Positions 27,879 through 36,647 of a stretch of DNA of 36,722 bases are shown here, piece by piece. This stretch comes from Acidobacteriota bacterium. GTDB taxonomy: Bacteria > Acidobacteriota > Terriglobia > Bryobacterales > Bryobacteraceae. The notes beneath the pieces are model-generated. The model searched no databases. It was not told where the DNA came from and saw nothing but the letters and a program-made list of their open reading frames with translations. Every line of letters starts with the position of its first letter. The stretch's first letter is position 1. Both the position numbers and the translations under genes were made by a program. Location: NCBI GenBank assembly GCA_018268715.1, contig JAFDVZ010000017.1, positions 1-36,722 on the forward strand. The letters are read 5' to 3'.

Positions 27879-29291
27879 ATGTCCAGAACCTTTCGCGAAC
27901 ACATTGAAAGCCTGCTCCGGATCCCGCCGGATTCCAAGCCCGAAATCTACCGCGAGGTGTTCAACTCTTCGGAAACGGTCAGCCTGAACTATGCCCTCGG
28001 GCTGTTGTTTTCGGCGGGTATCGCGACCTTGGGCCTGGTGCTGAACAGTTCCGCCGTCGTCATCGGCGCCATGCTCATCTCTCCGTTGATGGGGCCGATT
28101 CTCGCCGCGGGGCTTGCGCTCGCGGCGTCGGACCTCTACCTCGGGATCAAGTCGCTGTTAAGCCTGGCGATCGGCGTCGTGTTCGCGATCCTGTTCTCGG
28201 CGGGGCTGGTGTGGATCCTTCCCATTCAGACCGCCACATCCGAGATTCTGGCCCGCACGCAGCCGAACCTGCTCGACCTCGGCGTGGCGTTGATCTCCGG
28301 CCTTGCCGGCTCCGTCGTGGTTTGCCGGCGGGGCGCGGGGGGCGGCGTCACGGCGCTGCCGGGCGTGGCCATCGCCGTCGCCTTGATGCCGCCGCTTTGC
28401 ACCGTCGGATTCGGCGTCGGAAGCGGGTTCTCCTGGCCGATCATCTCCGGCGCCGGCCTGCTGTTCCTCACCAACCTGGCCGCCATCATCGCCAGCGCTT
28501 TCCTGGTGTTCTACGTTGTGCGGATGGACGCTCCGGACGTTCGCGCGCAGATTGACTCGATGGTGGAGGCGGAAGGCTCGCACGACCAGCTTTACCGGAT
28601 CCTGAAGACGACCGGCATTTCGGGCGCGCTGGGCCATCTGGGCGGACTGCGGGCGCGGATCCTCATGCTGGTGGCGGTGATGTCGGTCCTGTTTGTGCCC
28701 TTAAGCCGATCGCTGCTCCAGGTGGCCGGCGAAACCCGCTGCCGCGCCGCCGTGCGCGAAGCGCTGAGGCTGCTCGGGCCGGCCGAAACCTTCGTCGCCC
28801 AGCAGGTGGACATCACCGCCCGGAACGTTGTGATCCGGCTGGTCGCCGCCGCTCCGGTTCCCAAGGAGAGGATCGACAATGCCGAGAAACTGCTGATCCG
28901 CCGCACCGGCCGCGAGGTTTCGTTGACGGTGCGCCGGGTGGCCAGCGAGGAGGACCTGGCGGTGCTGCGGCAGCAGTTGAGCAAACAGGCCGCGCCGGCT
29001 CCGCCCGCCGACCTGCAGGAGATCGCGGCCAGCGTGGTCCCGCGCCTGGAACAGGCGTTGAAAACGCTGTGGCCGGATTCCGCCGGGGAGTTGCTCGCCT
29101 ACGAATTAGGCTTCGCGCCCGAGGGCGTGGTGGTGCGGATCCGCTACCGTTCGGCGCAACCGCTCGATTCGCCGGCCGCTGATGTTCTGAGTCAGGCGCT
29201 CGAAAGCCAGTTGAACGTGGAGCGGATCCGTCTCGAACTGGAGGCGGAAAAGCCCGCCGCGCCCAAGCCCGTCCCACGTGCTCGCAGATGA
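27879..29291 (+). CDS. DUF389 family membrane protein
   Basis: This 470-residue protein matches DUF389 (TIGR00341-type). The membrane core is about residues 35-220, with five or six helices and the family-typical SSAVVIGAMLISPLMGPIL and ALPGVAIAVALMPPLCTVG segments. A seventh helix near 255-280 precedes a soluble C-terminal domain (about 285-455) with beta-alpha repeats. The family's transport or signalling role is unknown. GGAGAGG precedes the ATG, and the stop overlaps the next start by four bases (ATGA), coupling it to the ABC ATPase. A small hydrophilic N-terminal part (1-30) sits before the first helix. Confidence 0.87.
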   Translation: MSRTFREHIESLLRIPPDSKPEIYREVFNSSETVSLNYALGLLFSAGIATLGLVLNSSAVVIGAMLISPLMGPILAAGLALAASDLYLGIKSLLSLAIGVVFAILFSAGLVWILPIQTATSEILARTQPNLLDLGVALISGLAGSVVVCRRGAGGGVTALPGVAIAVALMPPLCTVGFGVGSGFSWPIISGAGLLFLTNLAAIIASAFLVFYVVRMDAPDVRAQIDSMVEAEGSHDQLYRILKTTGISGALGHLGGLRARILMLVAVMSVLFVPLSRSLLQVAGETRCRAAVREALRLLGPAETFVAQQVDITARNVVIRLVAAAPVPKERIDNAEKLLIRRTGREVSLTVRRVASEEDLAVLRQQLSKQAAPAPPADLQEIAASVVPRLEQALKTLWPDSAGELLAYELGFAPEGVVVRIRYRSAQPLDSPAADVLSQALESQLNVERIRLELEAEKPAAPKPVPRARR

Positions 29292-30220
29292 CTCGGGCGG
29301 CGATATCGATCGCTGGATTGCACAAACGTTACGGCTCGGTGGAAGCGGTCCGCGGCGTGAGCTTCGAGGTGTCGAGCGGTGAGATTCTCGGCCTGCTCGG
29401 CCCGAATGGCGCGGGTAAGACCACCACGCTCGAATGCGTTCTCGGACTACGGCGTCCCGACTCCGGCGTCATTCGGATCGATGGCCTGGATCCGGCCCGC
29501 GCCGCCAACCGTGTGAAGACCCGGGTCGGCGCGTTGCTGCAGGGGGCGGCGCTGCAGGATAAGATCACCTCGCGCCAGGCCCTGGACCTGTTCGGATCCT
29601 TCTATCCGAACCGCTTTGAGACCGACGAACTGCTGGCGCGGTTCGATCTCGAACCGAAGGCGGACGCCTCCTTCCACACGCTGTCGGGCGGCGAGCGGCA
29701 ACGGCTATTTCTCGCGCTCGCGCTGGTGAACCGGCCCGCCGTACTGATTCTGGACGAGCCCACGGCGGGGCTCGACCCGGGCGCCCGCCGGGACCTGCGG
29801 GCCGTCATGCTCGCGATGCGCGAGGAGGGGCGGGCGATCCTGCTGAGCACGCATGACATCGAGGAGGCCGCGCACCTGTGCGACCGCGTCGCCATCATCG
29901 ATGCCGGGCGCGTGGTCGCGATCGGGCCGCCCGCCGAACTGGCGGCTCGCTCGTCGGCGCCGGCCCACATCGTTGTGCGAACGGAGCCGGTGCTGAGCCG
30001 GCCAGCGGTCGAATCGCTCCCGGACGTCGCCGTCACGGCGTGTGGCGATCGGGGCTGGAGGCTCGGAACGCGCTCGCCCAACCAGGTGCTCGCGGCGCTG
30101 CTCAGGCTGGCCGAAGACGCCGGCGCGGACCTTATCGACGTCGAGTTGCGGCGTCCCACGCTGGAAGATGTCTTTCTTGAACTCACGGGCAGGCCGTGGT
30201 CCGAAGAGAGCCGGGCATGA
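29288..30220 (+). CDS. ABC transporter ATP-binding protein, NosF/DrrA-like
   Basis: This 310-residue ATPase drives the permease encoded next. Walker A is GPNGAGKTT (residues 38-46), the signature is SGGERQR, Walker B is ILDEPTAGLDPG, and the switch histidine is in STHDIEEA. A C-terminal extension (about 225-300) ends in RRPTLEDVFLELTGR, the usual end of ABC-2 exporters of the DrrA/CcmA/NosF class. It overlaps genes on both sides by four bases, so it is translationally coupled to DUF389 and to the permease. Copper-enzyme maturation, drug export and polysaccharide export all use this class; position beside a NosR-like protein makes a Nos-type role worth testing. Confidence 0.92.
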   Translation: MTRAAISIAGLHKRYGSVEAVRGVSFEVSSGEILGLLGPNGAGKTTTLECVLGLRRPDSGVIRIDGLDPARAANRVKTRVGALLQGAALQDKITSRQALDLFGSFYPNRFETDELLARFDLEPKADASFHTLSGGERQRLFLALALVNRPAVLILDEPTAGLDPGARRDLRAVMLAMREEGRAILLSTHDIEEAAHLCDRVAIIDAGRVVAIGPPAELAARSSAPAHIVVRTEPVLSRPAVESLPDVAVTACGDRGWRLGTRSPNQVLAALLRLAEDAGADLIDVELRRPTLEDVFLELTGRPWSEESRA

Positions 30221-31527
30221 GATCGACGCTCGAGGGTTGCCTGCGGCACTTCCTGCTGGCGATCCAACTCAACTTCAAGAATCCAGCCGCGATTGTCTAC
30301 GGCTACCTGATTCCTGTCATCTTCCTGCTGGCGTTCGGCGCCGTGTTTCGCACCGGCAGCCCGCCGCTGCTGGCCCAGATGGGGCAACTGGTCACCATCA
30401 CGATTCTCGGCGGCGCCTGTTTCGGCTTGCCGACGGCGCTGGTGGCCGAACGCGAGCGGGGCGTCTGGCGGCGTTATCGCCTGTTGCCGGTCGCAACGCC
30501 CTGGCTCATTCTGAGCGCGATGCTCGCCCGGCTGTCCATTGTCGTTTCCTCCGTTCTGTTCCAACTCGTGGCCGCCGGACTGATTTTCAGGACGCCCGCG
30601 CCGGCGCATCCAGGGGCCTTCGCGCTGGGCCTGCTCGCGGTTGCGGCCGCCTTTCTTGGACTCGGTTTTCTGATCGCGGCGCTGGCGGACAACGTGCCCG
30701 CGGTCCAGGCGCTCGGCCAGTGCATCTTCCTGCCGATGATCATGATCGGCGGCGTCGGTGTGCCGCTGGCCGTGTTGCCCGTGTGGGCTCAGCGCATGGC
30801 CGGATTCATGCCCGGGCGCTACGCTGTCGAGTTGCTCGCGGCGTGCTTCGACCCGTCCGCCACGTGGTCCGGCGCGCGATTCCGCGTCGCTGCCCTGCTG
30901 GTCATCGGACTGGCGGCCGGCGTGGCGGGCGCGCGCCTGTTCCGTTGGGAGACGGGGAGACTCGAAGCGTCCGCGCGATGGTGGATCGCCGGGGCGCTGG
31001 CGTCCTGGATGGCCGTCGGCGCCATTGCGTGGGGAACCGGCCACTTGAAGCCGGTCTTGCCGGAGATGGATGCCTGGTCGAACATTACCGAAGCCCAAAT
31101 TGCCGGGATTACCTTCGACGGCCTGCCCGCAGACAGCGACATCGTCACAACGCTCGCGCCGCCCGATGCGCCCGGCGTCCGGGCATTCGCCGGCAAGCTG
31201 CAGAGCTGGCCACCCGGAGCGACCGATGACGCCGGCCAGAGCATACGGAATCTGGTCGCGGTGGCGGCCATCGCCGACCTGTGCGCCGATCCTCGCGAAG
31301 GCGAGATGGCCCGGGCCGTGTATGACCGCATCCGGTCCGCATTCGACGCGGCGGCGGCCCGGCAGGCGCTGGCCTGGATCGTATCCCGCCCGGACGATGG
31401 CCAGACGCCGGTGAAGGCCCCCGAACTGGGCCTGTTTCGCCATCCGCCCGAACGGCTGGTCCGCCAGCGCAGCGTCCTTTACGCGAAGAAGTACCTCGGC
31501 CGCCTGCTCGGCAAGATCCGGGACTGA
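30217..31527 (+). CDS. ABC-2 permease with extra helix and C-terminal periplasmic tail
   Basis: The protein is 436 residues from the ATG at 30217, which overlaps the ATPase stop (ATGA). Residues 1-245 form a standard six-helix ABC-2 permease. A seventh helix (about 255-273) follows, then about 160 residues with no membrane segment. If the normal N-in/C-in topology holds for the six helices, the seventh sends this tail to the periplasm. The tail has no cysteine pair or heme motif; it is helical in places (SIRNLVAVAAIADL, AAARQALAWIVS) and ends in a very basic stretch. I do not recognise the tail domain. NosY and DrrB relatives normally stop near 260-280 residues. Confidence 0.85.
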   Translation: MRSTLEGCLRHFLLAIQLNFKNPAAIVYGYLIPVIFLLAFGAVFRTGSPPLLAQMGQLVTITILGGACFGLPTALVAERERGVWRRYRLLPVATPWLILSAMLARLSIVVSSVLFQLVAAGLIFRTPAPAHPGAFALGLLAVAAAFLGLGFLIAALADNVPAVQALGQCIFLPMIMIGGVGVPLAVLPVWAQRMAGFMPGRYAVELLAACFDPSATWSGARFRVAALLVIGLAAGVAGARLFRWETGRLEASARWWIAGALASWMAVGAIAWGTGHLKPVLPEMDAWSNITEAQIAGITFDGLPADSDIVTTLAPPDAPGVRAFAGKLQSWPPGATDDAGQSIRNLVAVAAIADLCADPREGEMARAVYDRIRSAFDAAAARQALAWIVSRPDDGQTPVKAPELGLFRHPPERLVRQRSVLYAKKYLGRLLGKIRD

Positions 31528-31561
31528 TAGAGTAGTCCAAAGCCTTGAGGAACAGCGCCGG

Positions 31562-33544
31562 ATGAAACCTGTCGCGGAGACATTCCCGATTTTGGGAAAC
31601 GCCCCCGTTCGGGCGCCGGATCCACCGGTGGCGGCGTCACGGCGGATCGCCCCGCTGGCGGTTCTGCTGGCTGGCGCGCTCGGGCCTGCGTGGTATGCGG
31701 GACTCATTGCCGTCTCGCCGCAGACTCGCGACATCCATATCGAGGCGTATCGCTACGGGTTCAGCCCTTCGCGCATTCACGCCAATCGCGGCGACCGTCT
31801 GCGGCTCACTTTCTCGACGCGCGACACCGGGCAAAGCTTCTTCCTGCAGGATTACGACATCCAGGTGAACATAACGCCCGGCGACAAGCTGGTCGCTGTC
31901 GAACGCCTGTCGCGGCCCGACGATCCTCCCGTGTACGTGGAGACGGTCGAGATCGTCGCGGGACTGCCCGGGTGGCAAGGGTGGCTGACGTCGAAATCGC
32001 AGTTCCGCAACCATACTTATAACGGCCCGTTGCACGGAACCGAACGAGGCGACCTGATCGTGGCGCCGAACTTCCTGCTATACGGCGCGCTGGGGCTGCT
32101 GGCCGCGCTGCCGCTGGCCGGTCTGCTCGCGGGCGGAGGCCGCGCGAGCGTGGAGCGGCGGGTGAACCTGTTCCGCTTCTTCCCCTGGTTGAAGCGCATG
32201 CTGCGGGCGCCGTCGTTCCAGTTCAACCTAGCGCTGCCGATGCTGGGCGTCTTCTGGTTCATCATCCTGGCCGGGCTGTTCGGCACCAAGGTGGCCGGGC
32301 GCAACGCGGGCCCCATGATCATCTGGGTGCTATGGCTTTCGGCGCTCATCCTGTTCCTTGTGCCGATTGGCGGACGCGTCTGGTGCACGGTGTGTCCGCT
32401 GCCTATCGTCGGCGAATGGATGCAGCGCGGCAGGCTCTCAAAGAACCCCGCCGAGATCGACGGCCGGGCGGTGCGGCGCCTGTTCGGCGTACCGCTGGTG
32501 TGGCCCTCGCAGCTTGCCAACGCCTGGCCGAGGGTGCTGCTGTTTCTGCTGCTCGGCACGTTCAGCGTGGCGATTGTCGCGTCGCCGCCCGCCACCAGTT
32601 GGATGCTGATCGGACTCATGCTGCTGGCTGTGGTGACCTCCGTGTTTCCCGAGCAGCGCCTGTTTTGCCGGCACCTCTGCCCGATCAACAGCTACATCAG
32701 CCTGTATTCGACCACCGGCCGCGTGATGGTGCGCGCCGTGTCGGCCGAACCGTGCTCCGGCTGCAAGGAGCATTTCTGTCTGACCGGCAGCGCCAAGGGC
32801 TGGGGGTGCCCGTATGGCCTGTGCGCGGGCGAACTGGACCGCAACAACGACTGCGGCGCGTGCATGGAGTGCGTCAAGACATGCGCTTACGACAATGTCG
32901 CCGTGTTCTGGCGGACCGAAGGCCGCGACACGAAGGTGGCCACCTACGGCGAGGCCTGGCAGGCGATTGTCATGTTCGCGCTGGCCTGCCTCTACTGCCT
33001 GATCAACCTGGGCGCATGGGACCGGATCCGCGATTGGATCGACATCAGCGACAAAGGCAACTGGGGCACGTTCGCCATCTACGGAGCGGCGGTCTGGACG
33101 GTCTCCCTGGGCCTGCTGCCTCTGGTTTGGCATCTGCTGACGCTGGCCGGCGCGCGGCTGGGGCGGGCCAGGGTGAACGCCGGCGCCCAGTTCCGGGCCG
33201 CTAGCGCGTCCTTCATACCGATCGGACTCGGCTGTTGGATCGCCTTCGCCGCGGCCACCGTGCTCTCCATGATGACGTTCGTGCTGCAGAGCCTCTCGGA
33301 CCCCTTCAACTGGGGCTGGAACCTGCTGGGGGCGGCCGGCAGCCGCTGGCATATCTTCTGGGCGGCCGGAATACCATGGATTCAGACGGCTTGCGTCATC
33401 GCCGGCGCCGCTTACTCGCTTCAGACCCTGCAGCGATCGTGGCTGGATGTGCTGCCCCGGCGCCGGGCGCTAGCGGCCATGCTTCCCGGGGGCGCCTTCC
33501 TGTGGATCGCCGCCGCCGCGATGGTCTGGTTCTTCGCCGCCTAG
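31562..33544 (+). CDS. NosR-like membrane polyferredoxin with N-terminal degenerate CuA (COX2-type) cupredoxin domain
   Basis: This 660-residue protein has an N-terminal helix (about 30-50), a periplasmic domain (about 56-167), and then a NosR/NapH-like membrane part with roughly nine more helices. The periplasmic domain aligns by eye with the CuA domain of cytochrome oxidase subunit II: GQSFFLQDYDIQVNITPG matches the region around the first copper His, and N-x-T-Y-N-G-x-L-H-x-x-E-R-G (150-163) matches the CxxxCGxGHxxM loop without gaps. The ligands read Gln91, Asn150, Asn154, His158, Glu161, so only one of the usual set remains. The membrane part carries WCTVCP (274-279) and FCRHLCP (368-374). 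Two Fe-S sites follow: Cys398/401/406/416 and Cys431/434/437/441. It should pass electrons across or along the membrane. The partner is unknown. Confidence 0.85.
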   Translation: MKPVAETFPILGNAPVRAPDPPVAASRRIAPLAVLLAGALGPAWYAGLIAVSPQTRDIHIEAYRYGFSPSRIHANRGDRLRLTFSTRDTGQSFFLQDYDIQVNITPGDKLVAVERLSRPDDPPVYVETVEIVAGLPGWQGWLTSKSQFRNHTYNGPLHGTERGDLIVAPNFLLYGALGLLAALPLAGLLAGGGRASVERRVNLFRFFPWLKRMLRAPSFQFNLALPMLGVFWFIILAGLFGTKVAGRNAGPMIIWVLWLSALILFLVPIGGRVWCTVCPLPIVGEWMQRGRLSKNPAEIDGRAVRRLFGVPLVWPSQLANAWPRVLLFLLLGTFSVAIVASPPATSWMLIGLMLLAVVTSVFPEQRLFCRHLCPINSYISLYSTTGRVMVRAVSAEPCSGCKEHFCLTGSAKGWGCPYGLCAGELDRNNDCGACMECVKTCAYDNVAVFWRTEGRDTKVATYGEAWQAIVMFALACLYCLINLGAWDRIRDWIDISDKGNWGTFAIYGAAVWTVSLGLLPLVWHLLTLAGARLGRARVNAGAQFRAASASFIPIGLGCWIAFAAATVLSMMTFVLQSLSDPFNWGWNLLGAAGSRWHIFWAAGIPWIQTACVIAGAAYSLQTLQRSWLDVLPRRRALAAMLPGGAFLWIAAAAMVWFFAA

Positions 33545-33556
33545 GAGACTGCGTGA

Positions 33557-34945
33557 ATGGGTAAGGAGTCATCGAGACCGAAGTCGCCGAAGAAACGCTC
33601 TTCGCTCGGCTCCGGGGTGGCGATCCTGGCGGTGATGCTCGGGGTTCCGCTGGTGGTGCTGTTCTTCCAGGCGAATCGCTCCGGCCTGTCGTTGGGGCAG
33701 ATGTTCGAGCACATTTTCAAGGGCGCTCGAAAGGCCGACAGCGAGGACGCGCCGTCCAGGGCCGCCACGGGGGCGAAGATCGACTTTCTGACGCCCATTC
33801 CAATTGGATTCCCTTCCACCGAGCCGCCGCGGATCGGCAGCCTCCAGATCGTCGACCTCGACAAAGACGGCCTGCCGGACATCCTGGTGGCCGACATGTT
33901 GGCCAACCGGGTGGGCTGGATTCGCCAGTATCCAGCAGGCGTATACACCGAGAAATGGATCAGTCCGCCGCTTCCCGCGCCGGCCCATGTGAGCGCCGTG
34001 GACATCGACAAGGACGGAGACCTGGACATCCTGGTGGCCTGCATGGGCCAACTGTTCCCGAAGAACGACAAGATCGGGTCGGTGGTGATCCTCGAAAACG
34101 ACGGCAAGCAGAACTTCACGCCGCATGTCATTATCGACCGCGTCGCGCGCGTCACCGACGTCCGCGCCGCCGACTTCAACGGGGATGGCAAGCTGGACCT
34201 GGCTGTCGGTCAGTTCGGCTACGACGACGGCGAGACGCGCTGGATGGAGAACCTGGGCGGATGGCAATTCAAGTCGCACATCCTGCAGAGCCTCTCCGGA
34301 GTTATCCACGCCATTCCAGTCGACATTGACGGCGACGGCGATATGGACTTTGTCAGCCTGGTCAGCCAGGAATGGGAGGAGTTATACGTCTTTGAAAACG
34401 ACGGCCACGGCAACTTCAAATCCCACCTGGTCTGGGGCAGCACCAACGAAGACTACGGCAGCAGCGGCATCCGCCTGGTGGATCTGAACAAAGACGGCCG
34501 GGTGGACATCCTGCTGACCAACGGCGATGCTTTCGATTACCTGCCGCCTCGCCCACGGCCCTGGCACAGCGTCCAGTGGCTGGAGAACAAGGGCGGGTAT
34601 AAGTTCGAGCACCACGCCATCGCGCGGTTTCCCGGCGCAAGCGCCGCGGTGGCGGCCGACCTGGACGGTGACGGCGATTTGGACATCGCCGCGGTGAGTT
34701 GTTATAACTTCTGGGAAAATGCCGACTCACAAAGCCTTGTATGGTTTGAAAACGATGGAAAGATGAACTTCACCGAGCATGAGATCAGCCATTTGCCGAC
34801 TCATCTCGTCAGCCTGGAGCCCGCCGATATGGACGGCGACGGCAAGCCCGATCTGGTGACCGTACGCATGAACGTGTATCAGCCATTTACTAACGACGGC
34901 CGCGTGGTTCTGTGGCTGAATCACTGGGGGCGGAATGCGCGATAA
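33557..34945 (+). CDS. Membrane-anchored FG-GAP/VCBS repeat protein, seven repeats
   Basis: This 462-residue protein has a basic N-terminus, one membrane anchor (about 18-37) and a large extracytoplasmic region. Seven calcium-type D-x-[DN]-x-D-G loops begin at Asp100, Asp149, Asp206, Asp256, Asp309, Asp368 and Asp424, spaced about 50-58 residues apart, which fits a closed seven-bladed propeller of the FG-GAP/VCBS kind. AGGAG, overlapping the stop codon of the polyferredoxin gene, lies nine bases before the ATG. The product should face the periplasm, where it could bind the polyferredoxin or a substrate. Such propellers usually mediate binding; no catalytic motif is seen. Confidence 0.85.
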   Translation: MGKESSRPKSPKKRSSLGSGVAILAVMLGVPLVVLFFQANRSGLSLGQMFEHIFKGARKADSEDAPSRAATGAKIDFLTPIPIGFPSTEPPRIGSLQIVDLDKDGLPDILVADMLANRVGWIRQYPAGVYTEKWISPPLPAPAHVSAVDIDKDGDLDILVACMGQLFPKNDKIGSVVILENDGKQNFTPHVIIDRVARVTDVRAADFNGDGKLDLAVGQFGYDDGETRWMENLGGWQFKSHILQSLSGVIHAIPVDIDGDGDMDFVSLVSQEWEELYVFENDGHGNFKSHLVWGSTNEDYGSSGIRLVDLNKDGRVDILLTNGDAFDYLPPRPRPWHSVQWLENKGGYKFEHHAIARFPGASAAVAADLDGDGDLDIAAVSCYNFWENADSQSLVWFENDGKMNFTEHEISHLPTHLVSLEPADMDGDGKPDLVTVRMNVYQPFTNDGRVVLWLNHWGRNAR

Positions 34946-36647
34946 GCCGAGGAAGGCCAGGGTGCGCCCCGAGTCGCCGGTGGCCGACTCCACTTCCGCA
35001 GAGCGCCAGGCCGGACAGAAACGCTTTCTGCTGCTGGGCGGGCTCGCCGTTCTGTTGGGCGGACTCACCTGGGTGCTGGCGCCGCTGCTTCTGCCGGTGA
35101 AACTGCCCGACGATTTCCCGAAACCGCCCGATTTGAAGTCCGCGAGCGCCGGTCTGCGCGGCCTGCTTCAGGATGCGGACAAGGAGGCGCGGCGGCGCCC
35201 GGGATCGGCCGAGGCGGTGGGCAAACTCGGCGTCGCCTATCACGCGAACCAGTTTCCGGAGCAGGCGGCCGCCGCCTATCGGATCGCCGCCCGACTGGCG
35301 AGCAACGACTATCAATGGACCTACGCGCAGGCCTATCTCGCGGAAGAGAACGGCGATTCGAGCAATCAGGTCCGGCTGCTGCAGCGGACTTTGAAGCTGA
35401 AGCCGGATTATGCTCCAGCGCTGCTTAAGTTAGCCGACTCCTACTTCAAGCTGGACCAACTGGACCAGGCGGCGCACTATTACGAGCAAGCCTCCAGGCT
35501 GACGGACGCGGGCGCCTCGCTGCCCGCCGTCTTCGGGTTGGGCCGGACCGCCGCGCGCCGCCAGGAGTGGAGCAAGGTGGTCGAGATCGCCGCTCCGTTG
35601 TCCCGTTCCTATCCTTATCTGCTGCCTCCTTATGAGTTACTGGAGGAGGCCTATGGGAAGCTGGGCCAGAAAGACAAGGCGCTGGAGGCGAAGCAAGCCG
35701 GCGCCATGACCAAGTGGAAGGTGGTTCCGCCTCCGACCGATCCGTTCGACGATCAACTGACGGCCGCGTCCTTCTCTTCCACGCGATTGCTAAAGCAGGC
35801 CGGCGTACTGAGCCGGTTGGCCCATCCGGACCGGGCCGTGGACGTGGCCCGCCGCGCGGCGCAGGCGGATCCGACCGATCCGGCCATACCGAACTTTCTG
35901 GGCCACACGCTGCTGACGTTCTTCGGCGATCAACCGGCGGCTGTCGACGAGGCGATGAAGCAGTTATCCGCGTGCCTGCGGCTGAGACCCGACGATCTGG
36001 CGCCGCTGTGGAGTTTCGCCGACGACTTCTTCAAGTCGCCGAAGCCTCGGCCCGCGGTGGAGCGGATGCGCGCGTTCCTTCAGCCGTATGGGGAACGCCC
36101 GGAGGCGCAATTCTATCTCGCACAGGCGGCCGATGAGTTGGGTCAATCGGCGGAGGCCGTCGCGCAGTACCGGGCGGCGTTGAAGAGAACGCCGACTGAT
36201 TCGGCGATCCATAACAAGTTGGCGCAGGTGCTGCTGAAGACCGGCAAGACGGATGAGGGCGTCGCTGAGTTTCAGCGAGCGATCCAACTGAACCCGATGA
36301 ACATGGGGGCTCGGCTGAACCTGGGCGTTGCGCTGATGCAGGGCGGCCGTTATGACAGGGCCATCCAGGAACTCGGGGAACTGTTGCGCGTGAGTCCACT
36401 GGACGCCGAGGCGCAGTTCTGCATGGGGTACGCCTATATGTATTCAAAACGCGTGGACGAGGCGATCGGGCGGTTTCGCGAAGGCCTGCGGCTGAAGCCC
36501 GATGACGCCGAGGCGCACTACGGGTTAGGCTCGGCGTACCTCATGCAGCACAAGCGCGGCGAGGCGCTGGCCGAGGCGCGCGAGGCGCTGCGGTTGCGGG
36601 CCGATTTTCCGGCCGCGCGCGAGTTGGCTGAGCAGGCCGCGCGCTGA
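34935..36647 (+). CDS. Membrane-anchored tetratricopeptide repeat protein
   Basis: This 570-residue protein has a charged N-terminus, one membrane helix (about 29-53) and then TPR units over most of its length. The clearest are at the C-terminus: PTDSAIHNKLAQVLLKTG, PMNMGARLNLGVALMQGG, PLDAEAQFCMGYAYMYSK and PDDAEAHYGLGSAYLMQ. Others occur around residues 90-240. The repeats should lie in the periplasm and act as a scaffold for a protein complex. It overlaps the propeller gene by 11 bases and is the last gene of the operon, followed at once by a hairpin terminator. A direct contact with the propeller or polyferredoxin is inferred from gene order only. Confidence 0.87.
   Translation: MRDKPRKARVRPESPVADSTSAERQAGQKRFLLLGGLAVLLGGLTWVLAPLLLPVKLPDDFPKPPDLKSASAGLRGLLQDADKEARRRPGSAEAVGKLGVAYHANQFPEQAAAAYRIAARLASNDYQWTYAQAYLAEENGDSSNQVRLLQRTLKLKPDYAPALLKLADSYFKLDQLDQAAHYYEQASRLTDAGASLPAVFGLGRTAARRQEWSKVVEIAAPLSRSYPYLLPPYELLEEAYGKLGQKDKALEAKQAGAMTKWKVVPPPTDPFDDQLTAASFSSTRLLKQAGVLSRLAHPDRAVDVARRAAQADPTDPAIPNFLGHTLLTFFGDQPAAVDEAMKQLSACLRLRPDDLAPLWSFADDFFKSPKPRPAVERMRAFLQPYGERPEAQFYLAQAADELGQSAEAVAQYRAALKRTPTDSAIHNKLAQVLLKTGKTDEGVAEFQRAIQLNPMNMGARLNLGVALMQGGRYDRAIQELGELLRVSPLDAEAQFCMGYAYMYSKRVDEAIGRFREGLRLKPDDAEAHYGLGSAYLMQHKRGEALAEAREALRLRADFPAARELAEQAAR

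Follow-up and report, generated by a model that had tools for sequence, protein, structure and literature searches.

A polyferredoxin of Acidobacteriota with a fused cupredoxin lacking the CuA ligand set, kept together with an FG-GAP propeller and a TPR protein

Five genes on contig JAFDVZ010000017.1 of an Acidobacteriota bacterium raise the question of what a NosR-like membrane polyferredoxin does at a locus that holds no nitrous-oxide reductase (NosZ). The window analysed here is that one entire contig of 36722 bases, from a genome (G000; genomes are labelled G and loci L) of 7.6 Mb in 41 contigs that is 99.8% complete. Its + strand encodes, in an unbroken series with gaps of -4, 34, 12 and -11 bases, an ATP-binding cassette (ABC) ATPase, an ABC-2 permease, the polyferredoxin, an FG-GAP propeller and a tetratricopeptide-repeat (TPR) protein, at the coordinates that the original prediction had given. 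That prediction took the five genes for a single redox system made of NosR- and NosFY-like parts without nosZ. The kinship of the polyferredoxin, the failure to find NosZ and the conservation of a three-gene block (polyferredoxin, propeller and TPR protein) bear this idea out in part; the NosFY assignment and a working copper cupredoxin are not supported. We read the locus as an envelope redox or cofactor-handling system built of copper-respiration parts minus the copper site.

The polyferredoxin (31562..33544, + strand; 660 residues) joins a cupredoxin domain to a NapH-like 4Fe-4S membrane core. It matches Fer4_5 at 33.5 bits and, weakly, the NapH model TIGR02163 (40.8 bits against a cut-off of 213). 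Hydropathy predicts 11 membrane segments, with the iron–sulfur (Fe-S) loops on the cytoplasmic side and the cupredoxin in the periplasm. The 4Fe-4S region (32666..32884, + strand) contains the pair Cys369/Cys373 and the motifs Cys398/Cys401/Cys406/Cys416 and Cys431/Cys434/Cys437/Cys441; a further pair, Cys275/Cys278, sits upstream of it. Both motifs and both cysteine pairs are retained as in relatives, so that the two 4Fe-4S motifs, paired cysteines and multi-pass membrane topology of a NosR/NapH-type protein are all present, with a score under the NapH cut-off. NosR carries a periplasmic FMN (flavin mononucleotide)-binding domain; no FMN-domain match to the polyferredoxin was obtained at an expectation value (E) of 0.01, and the cupredoxin-like domain stands in its place. 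The earlier description of the protein as NosR-like is supported by its kinship with polyferredoxins encoded beside nosZ.

Polyferredoxin matches at E 1e-6 were found in 41 genomes of a phylum sample of 396. The relatives that carry titles are mostly from Bryobacterales/Solibacteraceae or unclassified Acidobacteria, one distant match being from Desulfobacterales. A tree of 27 rows was calculated, leaving out L016 and L109 (halves of the G627 gene), L080/L081 (which repeat the genes of L014/L015), G099 and weaker matches. In this tree the window and L008–L015 form one clade (100/100), which nests in a cupredoxin-linked group (99/98). The remaining 10 members of the group all have a cupredoxin, either encoded beside the polyferredoxin (L082, L084 and L086–L091, with one gene between in L089) or fused to it (L083 and L085). 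The base of the group does not separate, so that a single fusion is indistinguishable from two. Some genes in the AT-rich loci L082, L090 and L091 were located by tblastn, and several gene starts are approximate. At the level of sequence, the comparison shows common descent of the window polyferredoxin with polyferredoxins encoded beside nosZ.

The cupredoxin-like domain (residues 51–165; 31712..32056, + strand) scores below threshold for its family (PF13473, 18.8 bits; cut-off 27). It nevertheless shares descent with the CuA cupredoxins: it aligns column by column with intact CuA relatives, and all 10 matches at E 1 in a PDB sequence search were CuA subunits, weakly (best E 0.013). CuA is a classic electron-entry site. 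All 10 cupredoxins of relatives outside the window clade have the intact ligand set His-Cys-Cys-His-Met; the fused domain has Gln91, Asn150, Asn154, His158 and Glu161 at these positions, so that four of the five ligands are gone. Across the 10 loci of the window clade (the window and L008–L016), each of these five residues is the same in all nine rows that can be read there. The reading frame of L012 is broken ahead of the first ligand position and that of L013 ahead of the others, and L109 supplies the N-terminal half for G627. As their frames break within the domain, L012 and L013 were excluded from the alignment and examined separately where readable. Over the seven full rows, 57% of the cupredoxin positions are invariant versus 42% of those in the Fe-S/membrane core, which indicates that the cupredoxin is under constraint. 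Six pocket residues, a second histidine (His151) and those at the five ligand positions, are invariant in the same rows. The alignments thus show the loss of four CuA ligands, with fixed replacements, while the Fe-S motifs stay intact. The fusion of cupredoxin and polyferredoxin in the original prediction is real; a working copper site in the fused domain is not supported.

Relatives show which partners such a module can have. On one strand of G071 lie genes for a cupredoxin, the polyferredoxin, a cupredoxin-type protein (whose G134 relative matches COX2), NosZ (TIGR04246, 872 bits; cut-off 625), a small open reading frame (ORF), NosD (TIGR04247, 395 bits) and an ABC pair. NosZ is likewise encoded near the polyferredoxin, in the same orientation, in G099 and G112, which belong to the genus of G071; two stops interrupt the G112 NosZ frame. 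The NosZ gene of G180:C34 (nos_propeller, 76 bits) is 2.4 kb away from the cupredoxin gene, both being on one strand. An enzyme resembling dimethyl sulfoxide (DMSO) reductase type II (331 bits, under the model cut-off) adjoins the cupredoxin and polyferredoxin of G382 and, judged by homology, those of G410. Past the polyferredoxin of G216 (L085) come genes for a protein with CuA-type and cytochrome c parts, for an FtsX permease and for an FtrD-like Fe-S protein; homologs of these are present in G438 (L083). These gene neighbourhoods lead us to infer that the polyferredoxin family is an electron-transfer module that can serve various terminal partners.

The window genome itself gave no match to a NosZ protein query that yielded NosZ-length matches in seven of the 18 genomes searched together, which, at 99.8% completeness, agrees with the missing nosZ of the original prediction. 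This query replaced a search with the nos_propeller family, which returned nothing from the window genome but also nothing from 14 control genomes. With the same query, G122 gave no NosZ and G012 just a 57-residue match; G301, a member of the window clade, has NosZ on a different contig from its polyferredoxin. Nitrous oxide reduction is not carried out by any enzyme seen here.

The two genes that follow the polyferredoxin encode the FG-GAP propeller (33557..34945, + strand; 462 residues) and the TPR protein (34935..36647, + strand; 570 residues, matching TPR families), each with a single N-terminal anchor by hydropathy. The propeller matches FG-GAP_3 at 161 bits and has seven DxDxDGxxD-type motifs; UnbV_ASPIC was not reported at E 0.01, so that of the hallmarks of CRTAC1/ASPIC-UnbV proteins only the FG-GAP repeats are present. 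Its structure model (mean predicted local distance difference test score, pLDDT, 70.5) has murine CRTAC1 (9etn) as best fold match, in keeping with the FG-GAP assignment made originally. A NosZ-like propeller was considered and rejected, as no NosZ was among the best 50 of 384 fold matches reaching E 0.001.

The polyferredoxin, propeller and TPR genes travel together. In a sample of 257 genomes of the order, the polyferredoxin (threshold E 1e-60) occurs in eight (G000, G012, G562, G627, G629, G640, G649 and G650), and the propeller occurs at 77–100% identity in exactly those eight, four other genomes reaching only 37–39%. The order polyferredoxin–propeller–TPR is kept, contiguously, in all eight loci of the order, the window included. 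Identical sets of eight genomes have a random-draw probability of 2e-15, uncorrected for relatedness; the eight genomes fall in six of 84 genera. These searches show co-occurrence of the predicted block, with polyferredoxin and propeller in the same 8/257 genomes and the TPR gene adjacent in all eight. The idea that all five genes are kept together applies to these three, the ABC pair being present in five of the eight genomes only.

Several further arrangements were noticed around these genes. L121:2241-3116 (G562:C873) is a 291-residue frame in which the polyferredoxin N-terminus is joined to propeller repeats (propeller residues 279–459), with an intact TPR gene behind it; this shortened second copy in G562 resembles the product of an internal deletion or an assembly artefact. 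A DJ-1/PfpI-like gene (assigned by eye; 187–189 residues) lies near the block in three loci (L009:6128-6697, L013:5567-6130 and L121:685-1254), starting 18 bases past the TPR gene in L013. Near propeller–TPR pairs elsewhere, a second TPR protein carries a C-terminal haem-type segment (L043:11996-12976, L044:6296-7297 and L042:6326-7414), with CxxCH in L043 and L044 and matches to haem-binding models for the L042 relative. This hints at contact between the propeller–TPR pair and redox proteins in other lineages as well.

The ABC pair is more loosely attached. The ATPase (29288..30220, + strand; 310 residues; ABC_tran, 107 bits) scores 236 bits with the DrrA model (cut-off 312) versus 135–136 bits for NosF chains. 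Its identity is 36% over 192 residues with its counterpart in the G071 nos set and 46–51% with ABC ATPases of G462, G458 and G469. A NosF/NosY identity was rejected, the ATPase being nearer to the DrrA model and no NosD match being found among the five proteins. The permease (30217..31527, + strand; 436 residues; ABC2_membrane, 70 bits) is found at an identity of at least 62% in five of the eight polyferredoxin genomes (G000, G562, G640, G649 and G650; the G640 copy is seen as two overlapping pieces, each on its own contig), and no other genome of the 249 has it at that level; a permease match is absent in G012, G629 and G627. At E 1e-30, ten of those 249 have matches of 28–52% that cover the membrane part. 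In the window, L009 and L010 the pair immediately precedes the polyferredoxin; an Oar gene intervenes in L008. A PDB sequence search with the permease gave no match at E 0.1, and its C-terminal region of about 190 residues (30937-31524) matched no Pfam family at E 0.01. The final 46 residues are 80% identical among the window, L009 and L010, as if this conserved tail bound a partner.

The nearest outside relatives of the ABC pair, in G462, G461, G469 and G458, belong to one genus. In G462, G461 and G469 they have heme-copper oxidase genes at a distance of about 5 kb at most, none being noticed in the 14.6 kb of G458; there is, in addition, a TonB-dependent receptor in G462 and G469, and a cupredoxin in G462. 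The original prediction had held that grouping with drug exporters would tell against a single redox system. The pair does so in half measure, by model name, with a DrrA score under the cut-off, but its nearest outside relatives are close to oxidase genes in three of four genomes of one genus. At the loci L124, L126 and L127, from three genomes of that genus, the ABC relatives and the oxidase genes some 5 kb or less away, joined in L124 and L127 by a TonB-dependent receptor, may be a cofactor-supply cassette for the oxidase.

Oar-type outer-membrane barrels, which were outside the scope of the original prediction, adjoin the block in seven of the 10 loci: L008 (twice), L010, L011, L012, L014, L015 and L016. 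They lie upstream or downstream and on either strand, and are not adjacent in L009, L013 or the window. Fewer than 20 flanks are readable, since one flank is cut off by the contig end in the window and in L013, and L016 begins within the polyferredoxin; small ORFs of 86–103 residues between block and Oar gene (L008 and L016) were treated as spurious. At an Oar gene fraction of 1–3%, the binomial chance of adjacency in seven of 10 loci is 3e-10 to 3e-7, uncorrected for relatedness. The L014 protein has CarboxypepD_reg and OMP_b-brl_4 domains. Five of the neighbours (L011, the L012 fragment, L014, L015 and L016) form one ortholog group, 59–80% identical when full-length; those of L008 and L010 fall outside it, and G012 has a second member elsewhere. 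With the L014 query, the best matches outside the group were 43% in G122, 42% in G012 and 42% in G301 (partial length).

The window genome has about 71 Oar genes (97 matches). Of its 15 UnbV_ASPIC matches, six lie within 8 kb of an Oar gene versus at most 17% expected by chance, a weak signal. At L106:7254-13667 (G000:C40) an Oar gene, a TPR gene and an FG-GAP/ASPIC gene follow one another on one strand, with no polyferredoxin. Upstream of the five genes of the window is a DUF389 gene, the stop of which is overlapped by the ATPase start over four bases; it had no match in the related loci compared. A PADLOC scan gave nothing beyond generic ATPase-type and TPR matches.

Our preferred explanation, to which we give a little less than an even chance, is that the block forms an inner-membrane complex derived from an electron-transfer module (a NapH-like polyferredoxin plus a periplasmic CuA cupredoxin), which elsewhere in the phylum adjoins nitrous-oxide reductase or a molybdoenzyme of the DMSO-reductase type II kind. 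Most loci have a further partner, the ABC pair (five of eight genomes) or an Oar-type barrel, and a few have both. The polyferredoxin would take electrons from quinol or a cytoplasmic donor, and the demetallated cupredoxin would be a docking domain, or the holder of a metal other than CuA, that receives the propeller and TPR scaffold at the periplasmic side of the membrane. The cargo of the system, whether a cofactor, a metal or a redox protein, would be moved across the envelope by the ABC pair or the Oar barrel, and the complex would drive or gate its assembly or its reductive handling. A bolder form, which we consider rather unlikely, is a trans-envelope redox machine unlike known respiratory complexes. 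Its polyferredoxin would be fed by quinol or ferredoxin, its former CuA domain would dock partners without copper or hold a new metal, and, through coupling to the propeller/TPR scaffold and to an exporter or Oar barrel, the redox state would power or gate transport or assembly across the envelope.

A number of observations weigh against a complex of this descent and composition. Linkage to NosZ rests on two lineages only, and a NosZ-length match is missing from 11 of the 18 polyferredoxin genomes in the search, a set that includes distant relatives. Besides the poorly separated base of the cupredoxin-linked group, the stem of the window clade is long (1.27). The polyferredoxin structure model is poor over the cupredoxin (pLDDT <50), and a fold search with it gave no match at E <=0.001. 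In G301 and G122, both outside the order, propeller and polyferredoxin are on different contigs. Propeller–TPR pairs, with propellers at 47–55% identity, occur in six more genomes (G312, G101, G336, G392, G250 and G265) with no polyferredoxin within the stretches around them, and none of the six is among the polyferredoxin genomes listed of the 41 (a draw of the same size); the pair is, accordingly, not exclusive to the polyferredoxin. Permease homologs at 38–41% identity occur without the polyferredoxin in G462, G458 and G469 (in G462 over residues 8–420). The ABC pair of G650 is on another contig than the block, with integrase-like ORFs (assigned by eye) downstream (L119:776-1846, G650:C66). 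The window has no adjacent Oar gene, its 3' flank after the TPR gene being the 75 bases up to the contig end, and its genome has no member of the Oar ortholog group (best match 38%). Finally, the propeller and TPR protein have two cysteines each and no CxxCH, and no periplasmic redox cofactor is recognizable in the block proteins, which on paper leaves electrons without an exit to the periplasm.

This last point leaves room for a sensor or gate or for a new metal site. The strongest competitor, though an unlikely one, is a redox sensor or gate in which redox state is sensed by the cytoplasmic Fe-S clusters and relayed by the demetallated cupredoxin, propeller and TPR protein to the ABC transporter or Oar barrel, with no electrons passing to the periplasm. 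The fixed replacement of the CuA ligands and the lack of a visible cofactor site in the propeller or TPR protein suit such a role, and NosR-type proteins are partly regulatory; the retention of both 4Fe-4S motifs together with the paired cysteines 275/278 and 369/373, as in relatives, argues against it. Somewhat less probable still is a new mononuclear metal site formed by His151, His158, Glu161, Gln91, Asn150 and Asn154, which would keep the cupredoxin as an electron-transfer domain and overlaps with the preferred explanation. The invariance of all six residues in the seven full rows is consistent with it, but the structure model is below usable confidence there and His151 is not at a CuA ligand position.

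We regard as improbable that the locus serves the acquisition of a metal or metal complex, a TonB-type barrel and the ABC pair moving a copper or iron complex that the polyferredoxin reduces, in the manner of FtrABCD. The adjacency of Oar genes in seven of 10 loci, the TonB-dependent receptors (G462 and G469) and cupredoxin (G462) beside ABC relatives near heme-copper oxidase genes, and the FtsX permease and FtrD-like protein after the polyferredoxin in G216 (L085), and by homology in G438 (L083), all fit. Against this, ABC-2 pairs are usually exporters, the cupredoxin is without the CuA set, neither an Ftr1 permease nor a P19-type protein was found among the five proteins, and the oxidase link may be a single event since G462, G461, G469 and G458 are of one genus. 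A cupredoxin, FtrB, does belong to the FtrABCD iron transporter; its description reports a crystal without copper and discusses Fe2+ oxidation (PMC11966278). That chance alone put a Nos-type polyferredoxin next to an unrelated exporter and to repeat proteins common in Acidobacteriota is very improbable and already disfavoured: these genomes are rich in FG-GAP, TPR and Oar proteins, but the identical genome sets, the block order in eight of eight loci and the confinement of the close permease to the same genomes speak against chance.

Of the known systems, the closest is the nosZ-side module of G071, which has a homologous polyferredoxin (40% identity over window residues 199–659) and a homologous cupredoxin; the window differs in its fusion, lost CuA ligands, lack of nosZ and nosD, and propeller and TPR partners. 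NosR and NapH share the NapH-like Fe-S core, whereas the window protein has a cupredoxin-like domain in place of an FMN-domain match and scores under the NapH cut-off. NosF/NosY have the same ABC ATPase and ABC-2 permease architecture, but the window permease has an extra conserved C-terminal region. The Oar–TPR–FG-GAP/ASPIC (CRTAC1-like) sets of Acidobacteriota, such as that at G000:C40, comprise the same three protein types; the window propeller is without a UnbV_ASPIC match and is tied to a polyferredoxin. FtrABCD, also an envelope system, likewise combines a cupredoxin and an Fe-S protein (FtrD, so called by its Pfam name), but the block has no FtrA/FtrC, Ftr1-type or P19-type match, an FtrD-like protein being present only in distant relatives. 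A literature search that included passages of PMC3174227, PMC11966278 and PMC10367259, and from the coverage of which most subscription papers fall out, yielded no description of the gene set. We file the set as a variant of the polyferredoxin–CuA module, and neither as a Nos system nor as a NosFY-containing operon.

The combination of erased CuA ligands, strong constraint on the domain and an intact Fe-S partner makes this clade a natural test of what a cupredoxin domain does apart from binding copper. The block also ties one of the Oar/TPR/FG-GAP gene sets that are abundant in soil Acidobacteriota to an energy-linked membrane protein, and so offers a handle on such sets.

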